NCBI GenBank assembly: GCA_002694685.1
Contig: NZMW01000010.1
Coordinates: 186,001 to 250,000 of the forward strand
Reading direction: 5' to 3'
Length of the DNA stretch: 64,000 bases
Origin: Balneola sp.
GTDB taxonomy: Bacteria; Bacteroidota; Rhodothermia; Balneolales; Balneolaceae
Part shown: positions 4,850 through 22,521 of the stretch, in pieces
Layout: every line of letters starts with the position of its first letter
Numbering within the stretch: position 1 is the first letter of the stretch
The notes under the pieces: model-generated
What the model was told of the DNA's origin: nothing
Seen by the model: the letters and a program-made list of their open reading frames with translations, nothing else
Databases searched by the model: none
Made by a program: the position numbers and the translations under genes

Positions 4850-6151
4850 TTAGTTCAATTTTTGACGGAAAAACATTAATTCTGATAAATTAACGGACAA
4901 ATTAAATGCCCAAATCTTTTCTCTTATCAAGTCGTTATTTGTTGTTCCTCTCAATCCATAGCGTATACTCAGATCTACAGAAGAGTTTGACCGTGGTGAA
5001 ATTATTCCTAAACCAGCAGAAAACCAAAGGGTGTTTATATCCTGGTTCTCAATGGTAAGGTGGCCTGAATCATAGGAAACACCGCCACTGTACCTAAAGT
5101 TAGAAAGAAACTTGGATGAATTTGTTCTATATGGGTGATACTCTCCCCCAATACCAGCCTTAATACGGTCACTCATCATAGACATTTCTTCGTTTGAGCT
5201 GAATGTGGACTCAAAATCGCCCCACTGCTCATAAAGACCTTCTACAGAGAAATTTACCAAAGTGCTTGGATAATAAGTCAATCCGGCGTTTAATTCTACA
5301 GGTAAAGAAATTTTCCCATTATCTGTTTCTCGAAGAAGCACCTCTTCATTCTGCCCACCAATTTGCTTACTAACTGTGACTTTCTCTTCGGCATCTATAG
5401 TAAAGGGTAGGTTGGCGGTTGCGCCAAAGCTCAGCCTGTCTTTATCTGAGAAGAGTTTTTGGAACGTAAACAGAGCGCCAAAACGATGCGAGAGGGCTGC
5501 GCCGGTGATTTTAGAGTCAAGGTTGCTTGTCGTGTAAGAGGTGTTTGAGAAAAAGACATCCTGCGAATTGTTTTCAGATACAAAAGCCAGTGCAGGTGCG
5601 TAACCAACAGAAAGATATTTATTGATATTCCATCCAAATCCGATTTCAAGTTTGCTGATACCTCCTGCCCCGCGAATATCAGAGGCATAACCGAGAGTAT
5701 TATCGGTTGAAATGCTTGAAGAGTCTGAGGTAACGAATCGATAATTTGAGCGGGTTACTGAGTACATGGAAGCAGACATGCCCAGCTTTTGACGAATAAT
5801 TGGAAACGTAAATTGAAAGTATCCAGCCTCAAGTAGTGTGTTAACGTTCGTTGAAGTAGAATTAGAGGTATTGTACTTAGAGAAGTTAAAGCCGGATGAT
5901 GCAGTAGTATATGCATTTTTACCCCACATCGCCGGGTTCTGCAGTGAATTGGAATCCATATTATCTAACGAAACACCGGATATTCCCAATCCATATTCTC
6001 TGGGGTTGTTGTTGTCAGTTGGGAAGCCTACCCCAAATAATGAGTAGAAAGACCCACTTCTCTTCTCGCTAGCTCCTTCAATTTGGGCAGCTAAGTTGGT
6101 GGCTGTGAAAAGAAGGGCTGTCAGTAATGTGAGTTTTTTAATCGTTTTCAT
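4850..6151 (-). CDS. Outer-membrane beta-barrel protein, family unassigned
   Basis: A 433-aa exported protein with signal peptide 1-22 (ending LAAQ) and long stretches of alternating hydrophobic/polar residues, aromatic-rich strands and Gly/Ser/Asn-rich turns, as in a transmembrane beta-barrel. The N-terminal FGVGFPTDNNNPREYGLGISG segment and the SLQNPAMWGKNAY phrase recall FadL/PorV-type barrels that carry an NPA motif. It starts four bases after the stop of the DUF4270-like lipoprotein gene, so the two are almost certainly translated from one message and may form a barrel-lipoprotein pair. The substrate is unknown. Confidence 0.75.
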   Translation of the reverse strand: MKTIKKLTLLTALLFTATNLAAQIEGASEKRSGSFYSLFGVGFPTDNNNPREYGLGISGVSLDNMDSNSLQNPAMWGKNAYTTASSGFNFSKYNTSNSTSTNVNTLLEAGYFQFTFPIIRQKLGMSASMYSVTRSNYRFVTSDSSSISTDNTLGYASDIRGAGGISKLEIGFGWNINKYLSVGYAPALAFVSENNSQDVFFSNTSYTTSNLDSKITGAALSHRFGALFTFQKLFSDKDRLSFGATANLPFTIDAEEKVTVSKQIGGQNEEVLLRETDNGKISLPVELNAGLTYYPSTLVNFSVEGLYEQWGDFESTFSSNEEMSMMSDRIKAGIGGEYHPYRTNSSKFLSNFRYSGGVSYDSGHLTIENQDINTLWFSAGLGIISPRSNSSVDLSIRYGLRGTTNNDLIREKIWAFNLSVNLSELMFFRQKLN

Positions 6152-16099: not shown

Positions 16100-17104
16100 A
16101 TGAAATTAATTATCCCAATGGCCGGACGAGGAACACGAGTTCGTCCACATTCGCACACCGTACCTAAACCCCTTTTACCCGTAGCGGGAACCATGATTGT
16201 AGAGCGCATTGTGGAGACCTTTAACCGCACGCTCGATCGTGATATCAGTGAAATTGTGTATATCCTCGGTCCTGATTTTGGGGAAGACATCAAGCAGCCA
16301 TTGCGTGAAATGAGTAAGCGACATAATGCAGAAGCCATTTTTGAAGTGCAGGCCGAAGCGTTAGGGACGGCACATGCAGTAGCTTGTGCGAGTGATCACC
16401 TAGACGGTGAGGTCATTATTGCTTTTGCGGACACCATTTTTGACAGTGAAGAACCTTTTGAATTAGGCGATGCCGATAGCGTTATCTGGTTGAAGAAAGT
16501 GGAAGATCCATCCCGCTTTGGAGTGGCTGTTTATGAAGGTGACACCATCACCGGTTTTGTAGAGAAGCCAAAAGAATTTATTTCAGACTTAGCCATTATC
16601 GGGGTGTACTACTTCAAGAGCGGTAATGCCCTGAAGGAGAAAATTGAGAAAGTTATTAATGATGATATGAGAGGTCCGGGTGGAGAATACTTCCTGACTG
16701 CGGCTTTAGATATGATGATTAAAGAAGGCAAAGTTTTCAAAACGGCAACCGTTGACGAATGGCTGGATTGCGGAACCCTTCTCGCGTGGCTGGAAACTAC
16801 CGGACTCATCACCGAGAAAGAATTTGATGGAGTTGACGAGAGCAAATATCCGGGATCAACTATTATTCCGCCCGTATTTATTGGCGAAGGTGTAGTAATT
16901 GAGAACAGTACAGTAGGCCCTAAAGTCAGCATTGAGGCCAAAACAGTGATCAAGAACTCAAAAGTTGAAAACACTATCATTCGTGACAATGCTACTTTAG
17001 AGGATGTGGAAACTGAAGGATCAACTATTGGAGCGCACACCCATCTTAAAAGCGTGAAAGGTAAAGTGGATGTAGGAGATCATAGTGTGTTGGATATGGG
17101 GTGA
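16100..17104 (+). CDS. Sugar-phosphate nucleotidyltransferase with hexapeptide repeat tail
   Basis: A 334-aa cytoplasmic NDP-sugar pyrophosphorylase. The N-terminus IIPMAGRGTRVRPHSHT..KPLLPVAG is the nucleotide-binding signature of the RmlA/GlmU/GalU fold. GVAVYEGD, GFVEKPKE and the GGEYFLTAALD segment are later active-site landmarks, and VDEWLDCGT is typical of dTDP-/UDP-glucose-type family members. The last 90 residues have Ile/Val hexapeptide periodicity (VVIENS, VSIEAK, TVIKNS) of a left-handed beta-helix. The ATG at 16100 puts the motif at the N-terminus; an in-frame ATG at 16037 would add 21 non-homologous residues. The exact sugar cannot be told. Confidence 0.88.
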   Translation: MKLIIPMAGRGTRVRPHSHTVPKPLLPVAGTMIVERIVETFNRTLDRDISEIVYILGPDFGEDIKQPLREMSKRHNAEAIFEVQAEALGTAHAVACASDHLDGEVIIAFADTIFDSEEPFELGDADSVIWLKKVEDPSRFGVAVYEGDTITGFVEKPKEFISDLAIIGVYYFKSGNALKEKIEKVINDDMRGPGGEYFLTAALDMMIKEGKVFKTATVDEWLDCGTLLAWLETTGLITEKEFDGVDESKYPGSTIIPPVFIGEGVVIENSTVGPKVSIEAKTVIKNSKVENTIIRDNATLEDVETEGSTIGAHTHLKSVKGKVDVGDHSVLDMG

Positions 17105-17526
17105 GGGTGTAAGTGCTAAATCCCATATTTCAATGACCAATGACCAATGACCATGGTATACATACCATTCATTCATTATTCGAGCATTGGTTGACCCGGT
17201 GCTCATTGCTTTAATAATCATACTTAGGTTTCTCATTCCATTCGAAATGACAACGAGGTTGTTCATTAGAGGTCAGTTCTATAACTACCACTAAGGATTA
17301 TTCTATTTTATTTGTCATCCCGACAGTAAAATGAACGGAAGGTTTAGCTGTTTTCTTCGAGGGATCTGTAGATCTTACATCAATTTAGGAAGGTAGTCTC
17401 AGGTTTAGTCTATATCCTCGTCCCGTAGCTCAGCTGTGGAGTGCCAAGTGGAGGCTCTGCCTCAACCAAGGCCACCTTCCCATAGATCTTTTCAACTTAA
17501 TCGGGTTTTGGTAACAGAAAAAATGT
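17105..17526. other. Non-coding stretch upstream of the cassette-like array
   Basis: No credible ORF. It holds three tandem CAATGAC units (17131-17151), a 7-bp palindrome ATGGTAT-ac-ATACCAT (17153-17168), and a repeat-like segment at 17314-17367. If the array reading is right, this may be a decayed cassette or the left junction. Confidence 0.5.
17314..17367. repeat. Possible degenerate dispersed palindromic repeat
   Basis: Begins GTCATCCCGACAG and ends CGAGGGATCT, resembling the outer arms of the paired palindromes at 26337-26412 (GTCATCCCCGCG..GGGATCT). The match is partial, so family membership is tentative. Confidence 0.35.
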
Positions 17527-17649
17527 GCCTAACAAAGTATTTCAAATCGAACACGGACGGGGTTGGATGAAACTTGATTGCCAGGAATTAATTTTGCTAC
17601 TTCAAGAAAATCATAATTCGCGCGCCGATTAAACACTGGGCCGTTATAA
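17527..17649 (+). repeat. attC-like recombination site A
   Basis: 123 bp, from GCCTAAC (fits the attC R'' consensus RYYYAAC) to GTTATAA (GTT conserved, flank off-consensus). The arms are imperfectly complementary: the 5' arm AGTATTTCAAATCG matches the reverse complement of the 3' arm, AGTGTTTAATCG, with unpaired extra bases as in attC extrahelical bases. Shared core blocks with copies B and C include CACTGGG/CGCTGGG near the 3' end and TTGCCAG, ATTAATT and GCTACTTCAA in the middle (the middle blocks strongest in B). The ExbB-like gene stop lies three bases beyond it on the other strand. Confidence 0.7.
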
Positions 17650-17652
17650 AAT

Positions 17653-18015
17653 TTAATCCGTAGTTACCTTTCTTTTGTGATAGAGCCATCCTGCCAACGA
17701 GATAAAAAACCAGAATAGCCCGTAAAACATAGGTACTAAAAGAATATAAAATCCTCCCATCACAATTGAAGGCTGCTTATCGCCAGCTGATTTTATAGTA
17801 TCAAGCATTTGAAAAGTTTCGATTGGAAATACAAGAAGTCCAACAATAAGAGCAAAAAGTCCGGTCCCTAAAATGTAACTTCTATCTTTTCGAGTCTGTT
17901 GAGTTGAAGTACTTTTGATTGTCTTATAAAGGCCTAAGAAGCCAGAAAAAGTTATTACGACCATGAAGATTGGAAATTTTTCAACAAACGCATCTATAAA
18001 ATATTCAAACCACAT
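17653..18015 (-). CDS. Small membrane protein resembling the MotA/TolQ/ExbB family
   Basis: 120 aa with three hydrophobic helices (about 14-30, 47-64, 83-110). The phrases DRSYILGTGLFALIVGLLVFP, SAGDKQPSIVMGGFY and PMFYGLFWFFISL resemble a group of short Bacteroidota proteins related to MotA/TolQ/ExbB proton-channel subunits; this is family recognition by eye. It is shorter than a full ExbB and has no ExbD partner. It reads against the neighbouring genes, and its stop lies three bases from attC-like site A, so in a cassette model it is an antisense-oriented cassette gene. Function is not assigned. Confidence 0.6.
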   Translation of the reverse strand: MWFEYFIDAFVEKFPIFMVVITFSGFLGLYKTIKSTSTQQTRKDRSYILGTGLFALIVGLLVFPIETFQMLDTIKSAGDKQPSIVMGGFYILLVPMFYGLFWFFISLAGWLYHKRKVTTD

Positions 18016-18197
18016 AGCTCATTTTTTAACTTCGATTTTCAGCTCTGGCAATATTATAATGGTTTCTAGCTGCATTGGAATAGGTTTTCGATGAATAACA
18101 GCTAAAATGCGATAAACAGTTGCTGTTTGTTCGCCATCACATTTGAAAAACAATAGTAGTACGACGTACTTTGTTAAAAACTAAGAAATGATAGCTT

Positions 18198-18956
18198 TTG
18201 AAACGACGACAATTTCTAATTCATAGCGCCTATTGGGTGACAGCTTTCCTCTCTTTCACCCTACTGTACTCTTACATTGGTTCAATGAAACAAGGGGTTG
18301 TTTATGCCAGTTTTAGTCTGCCGATGATTATTGGAGTAACCTATTTCTTAATTTACTGGGCGGTTCCTAACCTGCTTTTTGAAGAAAAGTATCTATTATT
18401 TTTTCTGTTAACTGTTACCGTCTTTCTGGGAGTTTTAAATATTCAGATAGTTTGTGTCTTAATGCAACGCATTTTCTTAGCCTTGAATGCTGTAGCAGGA
18501 GTAGACTTTGTACTCTGGGATACGTTCTATTTAATGATTACCACAATTCTATTTTCTCTTCCTGCAATTACTTATGAAACGTTGCGTAATTGGTCGATGA
18601 AACAAAAAGAAGTAATCCAACTTCGGCAAGATGAAACAGAAGAACTACTTGAGGTGAAAAGTGATGGCAAAACTCACCGAATCGCATGCAACAAGATTTA
18701 TTTCATCGAAAGTTTTGGAGACTATGTCCACATTCATTTGGCAAATAAAAAAATAGTTACCCGCATGACGCTCAAAAAGTTAAATAAAGAATTAACCAAT
18801 TTTGTGCGAGTCCATCGTTCCTATATCGTAAATCCTGTTTTTTGCAGAGCGTTTAATTTGGATGAGATCATTGTAAAAGAAAAGGAGATCCCCGTTGGTA
18901 GAACTTATAAAAAGGATGTTTCAGAAGCCTTTGATCTAAATAGGATGGCCACCTAA
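18198..18956 (+). CDS. Membrane-bound LytTR-type transcriptional regulator
   Basis: 252 aa. The first 130 residues contain four hydrophobic helices (about 10-28, 36-57, 64-92, 103-125). Residues about 150-245 form a LytTR DNA-binding domain with YFIESFGDYVHIHL, RMTLKKL, FVRVHRSYIVNP and PVGRTYKKDV. A regulator with its DNA-binding domain tethered to the membrane can sense envelope or lipid signals without a kinase; the signal is unknown. The start is TTG (no in-frame ATG until residue 29). The TAA stop lies inside the first seven bases of attC-like site B, as is usual for integron cassettes. Confidence 0.85.
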   Translation: MKRRQFLIHSAYWVTAFLSFTLLYSYIGSMKQGVVYASFSLPMIIGVTYFLIYWAVPNLLFEEKYLLFFLLTVTVFLGVLNIQIVCVLMQRIFLALNAVAGVDFVLWDTFYLMITTILFSLPAITYETLRNWSMKQKEVIQLRQDETEELLEVKSDGKTHRIACNKIYFIESFGDYVHIHLANKKIVTRMTLKKLNKELTNFVRVHRSYIVNPVFCRAFNLDEIIVKEKEIPVGRTYKKDVSEAFDLNRMAT

Positions 18957-19073
18957 CAAGGTGTTTTAAATCTGGCGCGGACGAGCTGCGATGGAAACTT
19001 GTTTGCCAGAAATTAATTCGCTACTTCAACCAAATCATAATCCATGCACCAGTTATACGCTGGGTCGTCAGCC
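18951..19073 (+). repeat. attC-like recombination site B
   Basis: 123 bp, from ACCTAAC (fits RYYYAAC) to GTCAGCC, where the usual GTT is GTC. The arms pair imperfectly: 5' GGTGTTTTAAATCTGGCGC against the 3' arm's reverse complement AGCGTATAACTGGTGC. It overlaps the stop codon of the LytTR gene. Blocks shared with site A in register include GCTACTTCAA and AAATCATAAT, and with site C GGCGCGGACGA and ATGGAAACTTGTTT. The changed GTT triplet may mean this site no longer recombines efficiently. Confidence 0.7.
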
Positions 19074-19119
19074 AACCCAGTCCTCCATTGGTTCTCAAAA
19101 CACATTCCAGTATATTATA

Positions 19120-19146
19120 AGTACTTTAAAAAACTTTTAATGTACT
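19120..19146 (+). promoter_or_regulatory. Palindromic operator in front of the toxin-antitoxin genes
   Basis: AGTACTTTAAAA-aac-TTTTAATGTACT is a 12-bp inverted repeat with one mismatch, ending three bases before the antitoxin ATG. Phd/YefM antitoxins typically repress their own promoter by binding such palindromes, so this is the likely autoregulatory site. A TATATTATAA stretch just upstream could be part of the promoter. Confidence 0.65.
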
Positions 19147-19149
19147 GAT

Positions 19150-19434
19150 ATGAATATTTCTATTACCAACGATATCGAACCCCTCTCTGAGTTTAGAAAG
19201 AACTCTGCTGATTTTGTGAAACGCTTAAAAAGGGAAAAGCAACCTATCGTACTTACTCAACATGGGAAGAGTGCTGCGGTTTTAATGGATGTATCAGAAT
19301 ATGAACGGGTCACTAAAAAAATGGAAATGCTGGAAGATTTACTGGAAGCCAAGCAACAGGTGGAACAAGGCAAGACCTATTCTGTAGATGAAGCAAAAAA
19401 TAGAATCGAAAGTCATCTTTCTAAATGGAAGTAA
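19150..19434 (+). CDS. Phd/YefM-family antitoxin
   Basis: 94 aa. The N-terminal half is a Phd/YefM fold: ISITNDIEPLSEFRKNSADF, then IVLTQHGKSAAVLMDVSEYE, the conserved strand-turn that supports dimerisation and DNA binding. The C-terminal half (about 55-94) is charged and helical, the part that wraps the toxin. It should neutralise the adjacent RelE-like toxin and repress the operon through the palindrome just upstream. It overlaps the toxin gene by ten bases, the usual coupling. The pair lies between attC-like sites B and C, and toxin-antitoxin pairs are common stabilising cargo of cassette arrays. Confidence 0.92.
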   Translation: MNISITNDIEPLSEFRKNSADFVKRLKREKQPIVLTQHGKSAAVLMDVSEYERVTKKMEMLEDLLEAKQQVEQGKTYSVDEAKNRIESHLSKWK

Positions 19435-19715
19435 TTTTAACCGATCGATTTTTAACAAGGATTGAAGGGTGTACAGATTATATTGCTTTAGATCATATCC
19501 CTACGGCTATCCAATGGGCCGAAGGTATTTTTGAGTATTGTGAGCAACTGAGAACACAGCCCGATAGTGGAAGAATGGTTCCGGAGTTTAATCGACCAGA
19601 GATAAAGGAACTAATCCATGGTAATTATCGCCTGGTGTACGAGTTAAAACCAAATCGGGTAGACATGCTCACCATCTGGCATACAAGTCAAGTATTACCT
19701 AAAAAAGCATATTAA
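19425..19715 (+). CDS. RelE/ParE-superfamily toxin
   Basis: 96 aa, the standard size for RelE/ParE toxins. Visible features are the N-terminal strand VILTDRFLTRIE, a helical hairpin, and the C-terminal sheet with GRMVPEF, IKELIHGNYRLVYEL and ltiWHTSQVLP. The RxxYRLVYE-like strand and the final His-containing strand resemble ribosome-dependent RelE and gyrase-targeting ParE alike, so the target is uncertain. The toxin frame starts inside the antitoxin gene. Its TAA stop falls within attC-like site C. Confidence 0.9.
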   Translation: MEVILTDRFLTRIEGCTDYIALDHIPTAIQWAEGIFEYCEQLRTQPDSGRMVPEFNRPEIKELIHGNYRLVYELKPNRVDMLTIWHTSQVLPKKAY

Positions 19716-19832
19716 CAAGCTTTTTAGATTGGGCGCGGACGAACTGTGATGGAAACTTGTTTCTAAGAATTTAATTTCGCTACATGTAAGAAGTCATTAT
19801 CCCCGCGTCGAATAAACGCTGGGTTGTTAGCT
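19710..19832 (+). repeat. attC-like recombination site C
   Basis: 123 bp, from TATTAAC to GTTAGCT. The outermost stem TAACAA/TTGTTA is perfect, giving the clearest R''/R' pairing of the three copies. Inner arms pair as 5' GATTGGGCGCGG with the reverse complement of the 3' arm, ATTCGACGCGGGG. It overlaps the toxin stop codon. The 3' block AAACGCTGGG is the best preserved and recalls the 3' ends of large-array attC sites. Confidence 0.72.
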
Positions 19833-19859
19833 CGCAACTATAACCAACTAATATAACCC

Positions 19860-20261
19860 ATGGACAAAACGAAAAAGTATTCTATTGGTCTCGCTATTAG
19901 TTTAATTTTCTTTTTTACACTTGGAAATGTCCTTAGTAGTGTGCCAAATACATTAAGTACTTTTCCAGATCTCCTTTCCATGGTGCCTATTCCAGTTCTG
20001 CTTTATTTCTTTTTAAAGAATTCAGGTAAATCAGTCGAAAGAATAAGCGTCAAAGATGGGATTTTTTTAGGAAAGGAGGTTGTCAAAAATGCAGCATTTA
20101 TATTTGCCATTTTCACCTTCATATATAGTTTATTCTATTATAATGGTTCTCCATTGGTAATGGCCACAGTTTCTTTCGTAATGGCATTAGTCGGCACTTG
20201 GGTTGTCAGTATTATATCTATTGCAATCTGTTCGTGGCTTATCCGAACAGGCTACGCATAA
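19860..20261 (+). CDS. Small four-helix membrane protein, unknown function
   Basis: 133 aa, almost all membrane: helices at about 8-28, 38-53, 75-93 and 103-128, joined by short loops, with one polar stretch (KNSGKSVERISVKDGIFLGKE). No motif that I recognise; a distant relation to DUF4199-type proteins is possible but unproven. It begins 28 bases after attC-like site C and reads in the same direction as the other cassette genes, so it would be the last cassette gene of the array. Base composition is AT-rich like its cassette neighbours. Confidence 0.7.
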   Translation: MDKTKKYSIGLAISLIFFFTLGNVLSSVPNTLSTFPDLLSMVPIPVLLYFFLKNSGKSVERISVKDGIFLGKEVVKNAAFIFAIFTFIYSLFYYNGSPLVMATVSFVMALVGTWVVSIISIAICSWLIRTGYA

Positions 20262-20321
20262 ATTAAAGCATGCCCCTCTAGTTAATGATAATAGATAAAG
20301 AAACTCCCATGGAGTTCGTTA

Positions 20322-20365
20322 CATTAGTTCGGTTGCCAGAATTGCTTGCTTCAAAATATCACCGC
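20322..20365 (+). repeat. Possible degenerate attC-like remnant D
   Basis: The segment around TTGCCAGAATTGCTTGCTTC is similar to the centre of sites A and B (TTGCCAGAAATTAATTCGCT, then ACTTCAA..AAATCA). Neither a matching R'' nor an R' end is found, and the rluA-family gene begins straight after. Tentative. Confidence 0.3.
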
Positions 20366-21073
20366 TCAACTAACTAAAGAAGTGAAGTATTCAGGGATCT
20401 CGGTTTCGAAAGTCATTCTCTCTTTTGTAACCGGGTGGTTTATTGAAAGTGTTGCGGCATGAAGGCAGAGTCGCTTAATCCCTTTTTCTTTCTTTCCGTA
20501 CATTTTATCGCCCACAACGGGATGTCCGGTTTCGGCAAAATGGACACGAATTTGGTTTTTACGACCTGTTAAAAGGTTCACCTCTATCAAACTGTACTCA
20601 TCTGATTCCTTTAAAACGTTGTATTCCGTTTTTGAAAGTTTTCCGTCTTCTGAATCTTTTCCCACGGAATATACCCGATGAATCGAATTCTGAGCAAGGT
20701 AGGAGCTTAATATCCCTTCCTTTTTTCTAAGGTGGCCATTTATAACCGTGTAATAGGTCTTGGTGGCTTTCTTCCAATTATCCTGAAGGAATTTTCTGGA
20801 TTGCTCGCTTTTAGCCAGAACCAGAATCCCCGAGGTGTCTTTGTCGAGTCGGTGTACTATAAAGACTCTCTTTCTGGATTTTGGATTCCCTTTTCGAACA
20901 TAGTCGCCAAGCAAAAATTCAACGGTATTATCCTTTTCTTTGTCGTTGGGAACAGTAAGCAAGCCATGTGTTTTTTCTATGACTATGATGTCATAATCTT
21001 CATACAAAATGGTAATGCCTTTGGGGTGATACCTTTTCGGGGATCCTTTAAATTTTTTTCTCTTTTCTTTCAT
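20366..21073 (-). CDS. RluA-family pseudouridine synthase
   Basis: 235 aa. It isomerises uridine to pseudouridine in rRNA or tRNA. The signature HRLDKDTSG (74-82) gives catalytic Asp77; GLLTVPNDK near the N-terminus and LLTGRKNQIRVH later are the other family motifs. There is no S4 domain at the N-terminus, only a short basic tail (KEKRKKFKGSPKRYHPKG), so it is the short RluA form. ATG at 21073 is preferred over a TTG 15 bases upstream. The RNA target cannot be told from sequence. Confidence 0.93.
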   Translation of the reverse strand: MKEKRKKFKGSPKRYHPKGITILYEDYDIIVIEKTHGLLTVPNDKEKDNTVEFLLGDYVRKGNPKSRKRVFIVHRLDKDTSGILVLAKSEQSRKFLQDNWKKATKTYYTVINGHLRKKEGILSSYLAQNSIHRVYSVGKDSEDGKLSKTEYNVLKESDEYSLIEVNLLTGRKNQIRVHFAETGHPVVGDKMYGKKEKGIKRLCLHAATLSINHPVTKERMTFETEIPEYFTSLVS

Positions 21074-21345
21074 GTTTAAGGGTAGCAAATTTTGAGATGG
21101 GAAAAAGTTCTAACCACTGAATAATTTACTACTAAACAGCTTGCCGGTTAAAGGCGGTGTGTTTAGGTTGTTGAGGTAGCAAAGTTTTCACAACCAGGTG
21201 ACGGAAGCCACTCATAGTATCTTTGCAGTAGGAGCCTCCCCTAACAAGCGTTTACATCCTTTTTTGAACGCTGATCACTGCTTACAAGTTGATGTTATCA
21301 AGTTATTAAACGATAACAACAAGTTTATATCAGCCTTTTAGAAAT

Positions 21346-22521
21346 ATGGGATGGAAAAAGACATTAATTATTTCTGTAGGAATATTGATTGGAGCAGCAG
21401 CTCTAATTGCACTAATTTTTTCTACAGAACCTGAAGCTTCGCGATCCGGAGCGACTAAACAAACAGCCATGCTGGTGAATGTGGTAGAAGTGGAACAGGG
21501 TGACTTCATACCTTCTATTACAGCTACCGGCACCGTAATTCCGTCGCAAGATATCGTTCTGGGTTCGCGGGTGAGCGGGGAAATATTAAGCTTATCAGAA
21601 AAGTTCTCGCCCGGAAGCTATGTTAGAAAGGGTGAAGTCCTGCTAAGCATTGATCCTTCTGATTATGAGAATAATCTTCAGCAAGCTAAAAGTGAATTAA
21701 GTCAGGCTCAGGCAGATTTAAAGCTGGAGATGGGTCTTCAGCAGGCAGCCAAAAGAGAATATGAGCTTTTAGATGATACCCTCGCTCCCGAAAATAAAGC
21801 ATTGGTTTTACGAGAGCCTCAGCTTGAAACTGCAAAAGCTCAGGTAGAAGCAGCTGAATCATCCTACAAACAAGCTGAATTGGACTTGCAGCGAACTACA
21901 ATTAAAGCTCCTTTCGATGCCTACATATTAAATCGGAATGTAAATATCGGTTCTTTGGTAAGTCCGGGACAAGATTTAGGAAGGTTGGTTGGGGTCGATC
22001 ATTATTGGGTTGAAACAACGGTTCCCATATCAAAGCTACGGTGGCTATCATTTGATGAGAACAGCACCGGATCGGATGTAATAATCAGAAACCGAACTGC
22101 TTGGGATGAAGATGAATCCAGAACCGGAACGCTTTATCGGCAATTAGGCTCCTTAGAAAATCAAACCCGGATGGCTCGAGTTTTAGTTGAAGTTGCTGAT
22201 CCAATTTCAATTCAGAATCAAAATGCTGATAAGCCGAAGCTGATTATTGGCTCATTTGTAGAAACGAATATTCAAACCAAGCCACTGGAGAATGTGGTTA
22301 GGCTAAATCGAGACTACCTCAGGTCTGATGAAACCGCGTGGGTAAAACAGGGAGATTCATTAAGCATCAGAAATCTGGAAATTGAATTTCAGGATGCGGT
22401 ATATGCTTATATCACCGCTGGACTCGAAGGTGGCGAAGAAGTTATCACCACAAACTTGAGTTCGGTGACAGAAGGAGCTGCTTTACGACTGGAGAACTCA
22501 TCAAATAGTGGTAGTGAATAA
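21346..22521 (+). CDS. RND efflux periplasmic adaptor (membrane fusion protein)
   Basis: 391 aa. An N-terminal membrane anchor (about 5-26) is followed by a barrel-sandwich half-motif ([21 protein letters not shown]), a coiled-coil hairpin (about 105-190, rich in Q, A, E, L), the returning lipoyl half ([26 protein letters not shown]) and beta-barrel/membrane-proximal domains. Such adaptors link an RND pump to an outer-membrane channel. Its TAA shares its last base with the pump ATG. No TolC-like channel gene is in this operon. Confidence 0.93.

Follow-up and report, generated by a model that had tools for sequence, protein, structure and literature searches.

The window that we analysed is a 64,000-nucleotide stretch of Balneola sp. 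DNA that corresponds to positions 186001-250000 of contig C10 (618516 bases) in a 17-contig draft genome (G000; 3.95 Mb, 99.7% complete). We infer that the host genus is the GTDB genus built around Gracilimonas, which includes G. mengyeensis and G. amylolytica. The locus is bordered on the left by a nucleotidyltransferase gene (16109-17104, plus strand), which is found in 54 of 57 family genomes and lies outside the block described here, and on the right by the gene for an RND periplasmic adaptor (21346-22521, plus strand). Between these chromosomal flanks, we found the three repeats of 123 bp that had been predicted, with their coordinates borne out in the sequence: A (17527-17649), B (18951-19073) and C (19710-19832), all on the plus strand. 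Within the genome, the block is placed at G000:C10:203528-205830.

The genes that accompany the repeats fall into units bounded by them. A 120-residue membrane protein, encoded antisense to the array (17653-18015, minus strand; weak DUF4271 likeness, Pfam E 7e-4, below cut-off), shares one cassette with a membrane-anchored LytTR regulator (18198-18956, plus strand; LytTR domain, 72 bits). Downstream of B lie genes for a Phd/YefM-type antitoxin (19150-19434, plus strand; PF02604, 65.7 bits) and a ParE-type toxin (19425-19715, plus strand; PF05016, 50.4 bits). Repeat C is followed by a gene for a 133-residue membrane protein (19860-20261, plus strand; weak DUF4199 likeness, Pfam E 0.0045, below cut-off), which has one weak relative only among 89 family genomes and probably belongs to a cassette that has lost a recognisable attC of its own. 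The last unit (20358-21162) is antisense and carries a pseudouridine synthase gene (20366-21088, minus strand; PF00849, 102 bits); its own attC is unrecognisable here. The claim that the repeats swallow the stop codons of cassette genes holds, with the LytTR stop (18954-18956) inside B and the ParE stop (19713-19715) inside C.

The three repeats are clearly related to one another, with gapped identities of 92/124 (A-B), 86/126 (A-C) and 91/124 (B-C) and pairwise alignment scores of 40-58, where 500 shuffles reached at most 8.5. The AAC and GTT (GTC in B) that had been described at their ends are present, but each core lies four bases inside the start or end of the repeat rather than at it: GCCTAAC...GTTATAA in A, ACCTAAC...GTCAGCC in B and TATTAAC...GTTAGCT in C. 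To score the repeats as attC sites, we used two covariance models built here rather than the one supplied with IntegronFinder. Model R1 was built from 12 copies of the repeat, and model R2, which was built to avoid circularity, from 16 attCs that adjoin intI, all of them in other Balneolaceae genomes. Both models matched all three repeats (A: R1 119.9 bits, R2 102.8 bits, E 4.9e-23; B: R1 114.1 bits, R2 91.6 bits, E 3.2e-20; C: R1 111.6 bits, R2 95.0 bits, E 4.7e-21; the R2 E-values are rough, as their calibration was short), and these were the sole significant matches of the attC models in the 64 kb window. An Rfam scan of the window gave zero matches. As R2 was trained only on intI-adjacent sites of other species and still matches A, B and C, we conclude that the repeats are attC sites.

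The original prediction also held that the arms of the repeats stay complementary and read from this a selection for the fold. This part of the prediction did not stand. By the marks of the model alignment, 14 of the 19 modelled pairs survive in each of A and B and 17 in C, so that five, five and two pairs are lost, and the DNA folds of the bottom strands are no better than those of shuffled sequence (z: A +0.9, B -0.3, C -0.6). None of the three shows the bottom-strand R/L stem of a functional attC, pairing of the R box is low, and the exchange core of B is GTC instead of GTT. These shuffle-level folds, lost pairs and altered core indicate that A and B are decayed and C partly so, and we consider the window copies to be old sites on which selection is weak or absent; they are probably poor recombination substrates. 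We therefore rejected selection for the fold as something that can be read from A, B and C alone, and compensatory changes were not clear in the attC set that includes the window copies. In the family-wide set of intI-adjacent sites, compensatory changes occupied 14 cells, and 0 of 500 shuffles reached either this count or the covariation score.

A BLAST search of the genome with repeat B, which had been proposed as a check, returned about 23 good copies, and R1 finds 30 attCs at E at most 1e-4, distributed over contigs C9, C15, C11, C4, C10, C3 and C1. The repeats elsewhere in the genome are also found in cassette contexts, consistent with the original prediction. The 5.8 kb contig C9 contains nine attCs, each separated from the next by a gene, has all main genes in the direction of the array and reads as a textbook cassette array. 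On the bottom strand, its sites fold into a long R/L stem that includes unpaired bases, with energies just mildly below those of shuffles. We observed two attC length classes in this array, of about 120 and about 85 bp. The shorter sites (841-924, 4934-5021 and 5293-5380 of locus L040) have outer arms like those of the longer class and a different loop, and the two classes occur together in one array and also in other genera. A second cluster without intI (C11:106128-108784, L042) has five attCs in mid-contig, again with the main genes in the direction of the array. Dispersed attCs were found as a pair (C4:753054-753768) and as singles (C4:809143-809260, C1:80769, C1:427724 and C1:686864), and this pair and these singles are candidates for secondary-site insertions or relics.

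The original prediction placed the block in a CALIN or in a part of a larger integron far from its integrase, and the genome contains both an integrase and an attI, on a contig other than that of the block. A search with TIGR02249 (curated cut-off, 265 bits; none of n=14 control genomes over cut-off) for the IntI-type recombinase that had been suggested as a test found one gene over cut-off, at 448.7 bits (C1:314-1255). The intI gene (C1:299-1261) encodes an intact-looking protein of 320 residues, for which the closest solved structure is 2a3v (IntI4 of Vibrio cholerae; E 8e-83, aligned end to end). The alignment with 2a3v covers the insert VALPKALRRKYPNAEIELGWQYIFPS and the motifs HTFRHSF and YTHV; we take this insert to set IntI apart from Xer recombinases.

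By eye, the sequence upstream of intI hardly differs between this genome, G026 and G023 outward to ATTATATGTTA, AATTATATGTTA, and is unrelated beyond that point. Other Balneolaceae have a different conserved stretch at this position, which likewise ends in ...ATGTTA before unrelated sequence. By this comparison, the conserved stretch ending in ATGTTA upstream of intI reads as a clear attI, followed by different first cassettes. Upstream of intI, contig C1 continues for 298 bp and breaks off within the first cassette. As intI lies at the edge of its contig, the adjoining array is truncated and cannot be followed from attI. The part of the first cassette that is present (C1:1-298, L039) appears to start an ORF, MEKTIFKISEMDCPSEENLIRMKL, that is of heavy-metal-associated type by eye and is cut by the contig end.

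It had been expected that gene content between the repeats would vary among related strains, and it does. The ParE toxin has copies that are 95% identical in G026 and 92% identical in G023, where the toxin-antitoxin cassette sits between two attCs (the second of which is weak in G023). The two genomes have this locus in common, its flanks are without similarity to the window, and in G026 it lies about 580 kb from intI. The pseudouridine synthase gene is present in two of ten genomes of the genus. Its unit matches contig C20 of G024 at 88% DNA identity, with homology from 20358 to 21162, and in G024 it is flanked by two attCs (83.6 and 76.3 bits). The unit of LytTR and membrane genes is kept in G012 at 73% DNA identity, with homology from 17669 to 18955, limits that lie close to the attC borders; no attC was detectable beside it in G012, even with search filters off. 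In G029, which is without the block, 184 bp separate the nucleotidyltransferase gene from that of the RND adaptor. Gene content downstream of the nucleotidyltransferase differs among other members of the genus, so that the region varies in other ways too.

These comparisons also bear on the extent of the block, for which 17527-20365 had been proposed. The start was kept, and the end proved too short: because the pseudouridine synthase unit is flanked by attCs in G024, we regard it as an antisense cassette, and the block thus runs to at least about 21162. Searches for attC remnants at 20262-20365, at 21089-21345 (TAACAAGCGTTT at 21241) and to the left of A gave scores no better than those of shuffles. 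The left end of the block shows no clear junction. The intergenic stretch to its left (17105-17526) is without a cassette-like ORF, and a DNA search against 89 family genomes gave short dispersed matches only. Short repeats within it (for example 17413-17465 and CCAATGACCAATGACC) recur intergenically throughout the genus. We considered these 422 bp as a possible cassette and rejected this, as they contain only short dispersed intergenic repeats.

The same attC family is found elsewhere in the Balneolaceae in direct association with integrases. In G029 (C8), G002 (C19), G035 (C5), G. amylolytica LA399 (G021, C10) and G025 (C4), it forms arrays that are no more than a few kb from intI and oriented divergently to it, and intI with adjacent attC arrays was also observed in G. 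mengyeensis (DSM 21985, G022) as in G. amylolytica (loci L116, L118-L122, L123 and L128). An intI over the TIGR02249 cut-off is present in 50 of 92 Balneolaceae genomes; in a sample of the phylum it is present in 86 of 297, a figure that is not an estimate of prevalence since the sample leans to relatives. In an IntI tree that includes other phyla, the Balneolaceae sequences form one clade (support 100/100), inside which the genera are mixed.

From these sequence comparisons, we are highly confident that the block from 17527 to about 21162 is a CALIN of about four cassettes with three recognisable attCs, derived from a Gracilimonas-like IntI-attI-attC system and lying far from intI. A CALIN, as IntegronFinder defines it, has at least two attCs within 4 kb with cassette genes between them, and intI elsewhere only. 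In the window, three attCs lie within 2.3 kb (E at most 3e-20 with the independent model R2), and the single intI over cut-off sits on contig C1. The block differs from this definition in that its sites are decayed and its host lineage is apparently without an integron paper. This reading is supported by an attC family shared with the intI-adjacent arrays of relatives and by the presence of the genome's own intI and attI, as well as by gene units whose starts and ends fall at or near attC borders, two of which recur in other attC contexts, and by the G029 locus without the block. As both ends of the contig are at least 203 kb away from the block, the block is not in the array directly beside intI.

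Following established integron biology, each attC would have been recombined by IntI as a folded bottom strand, with exchange at G|TT, and each cassette would have entered as a circle with one attC. Either a piece of an array may have been relocated here or the block may have been inserted at a secondary (attG-like) site, after which the attCs would have decayed by mutation and left the cassettes mostly fixed. The ParE/Phd cassette may have been kept by its own addictiveness. Such a mechanism would be ordinary; it is the lineage that is apparently unreported.

Regarding the route of arrival, we think it somewhat probable that the block is a relocated or inverted piece of the main array, or what remains of a former integron that has lost its intI. 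That several cassettes are present, with attCs that all point the same way and show a similar stage of decay, is consistent with this origin, as is a rearranged region in which relatives differ in the genes following the nucleotidyltransferase, although the TIGR02249 search of the genome found no intI remnant at the locus. A second route, which we regard as possible but would not favour, is that IntI inserted cassettes successively at a secondary (attG-like) chromosomal site and that the dispersed clusters arose likewise. The roughly 30 attCs of the genome are spread over several distinct locations, with singles and pairs in the interior of contigs C1, C4, C10 and C11, and attG integration has been described in other bacteria (Loot et al. 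2024, as cited in PMC12901181). However, we were unable to define a clean G|TT junction against an empty site, and simple attG insertion predicts a cassette gene to the left of attC A, where none is recognisable. It is extremely improbable that the repeats are an unrelated dispersed palindromic family (REP or MITE-like) that merely resembles attC, since, despite the scatter of copies in the genome, this reading is refuted by the tandem arrays of the same family directly beside, and divergent from, intI in five relatives, and is further opposed by attI junctions that diverge at GTTA and by gene units between the copies that recur elsewhere in relatives.

Assignment of the block to a CALIN places a well-studied gene-capture system in the Balneolaceae, where it is apparently undescribed; the family has its own IntI clade and its own type of attC, and an attI that can be read from the sequence. 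It would also provide a natural system for how cassettes get stranded from their integrase and how attCs decay. We tentatively raise the broader proposal, which we consider rather doubtful, that an old integron lineage runs through the whole family Balneolaceae and that its integrase regularly inserts cassettes at many secondary chromosomal sites. If this is true, stranded cassettes would be a major route of gene gain across the chromosome, instead of within one array.

Our literature searches, which covered sources other than subscription papers and supplementary tables, found no publication on integrons in Balneolaceae or Gracilimonas, and nothing on integrons in the literature on Balneola or Rhodothermaeota. 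A complete integron is described in Salinibacter ruber M1 (PMC9024848), which is alike in being an integron in the wider Bacteroidetes/Chlorobi group; it is a single case in that paper, whereas in the Balneolaceae, a single family, 50 of 92 genomes have intI. With the sedentary chromosomal integrons, such as the V. cholerae superintegron and those of Xanthomonas and Treponema, the Balneolaceae system shares an intI divergent from the array, an attI, homogeneous lineage-typical attCs, and cassettes that mostly carry small orphan genes and toxin-antitoxin pairs. In contrast to those integrons, the attCs of this draft are scattered over several clusters and fall into two length classes (about 120 and 85 bp). 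In the family, we also observed that G024 and G016 have three intI genes each over the cut-off.
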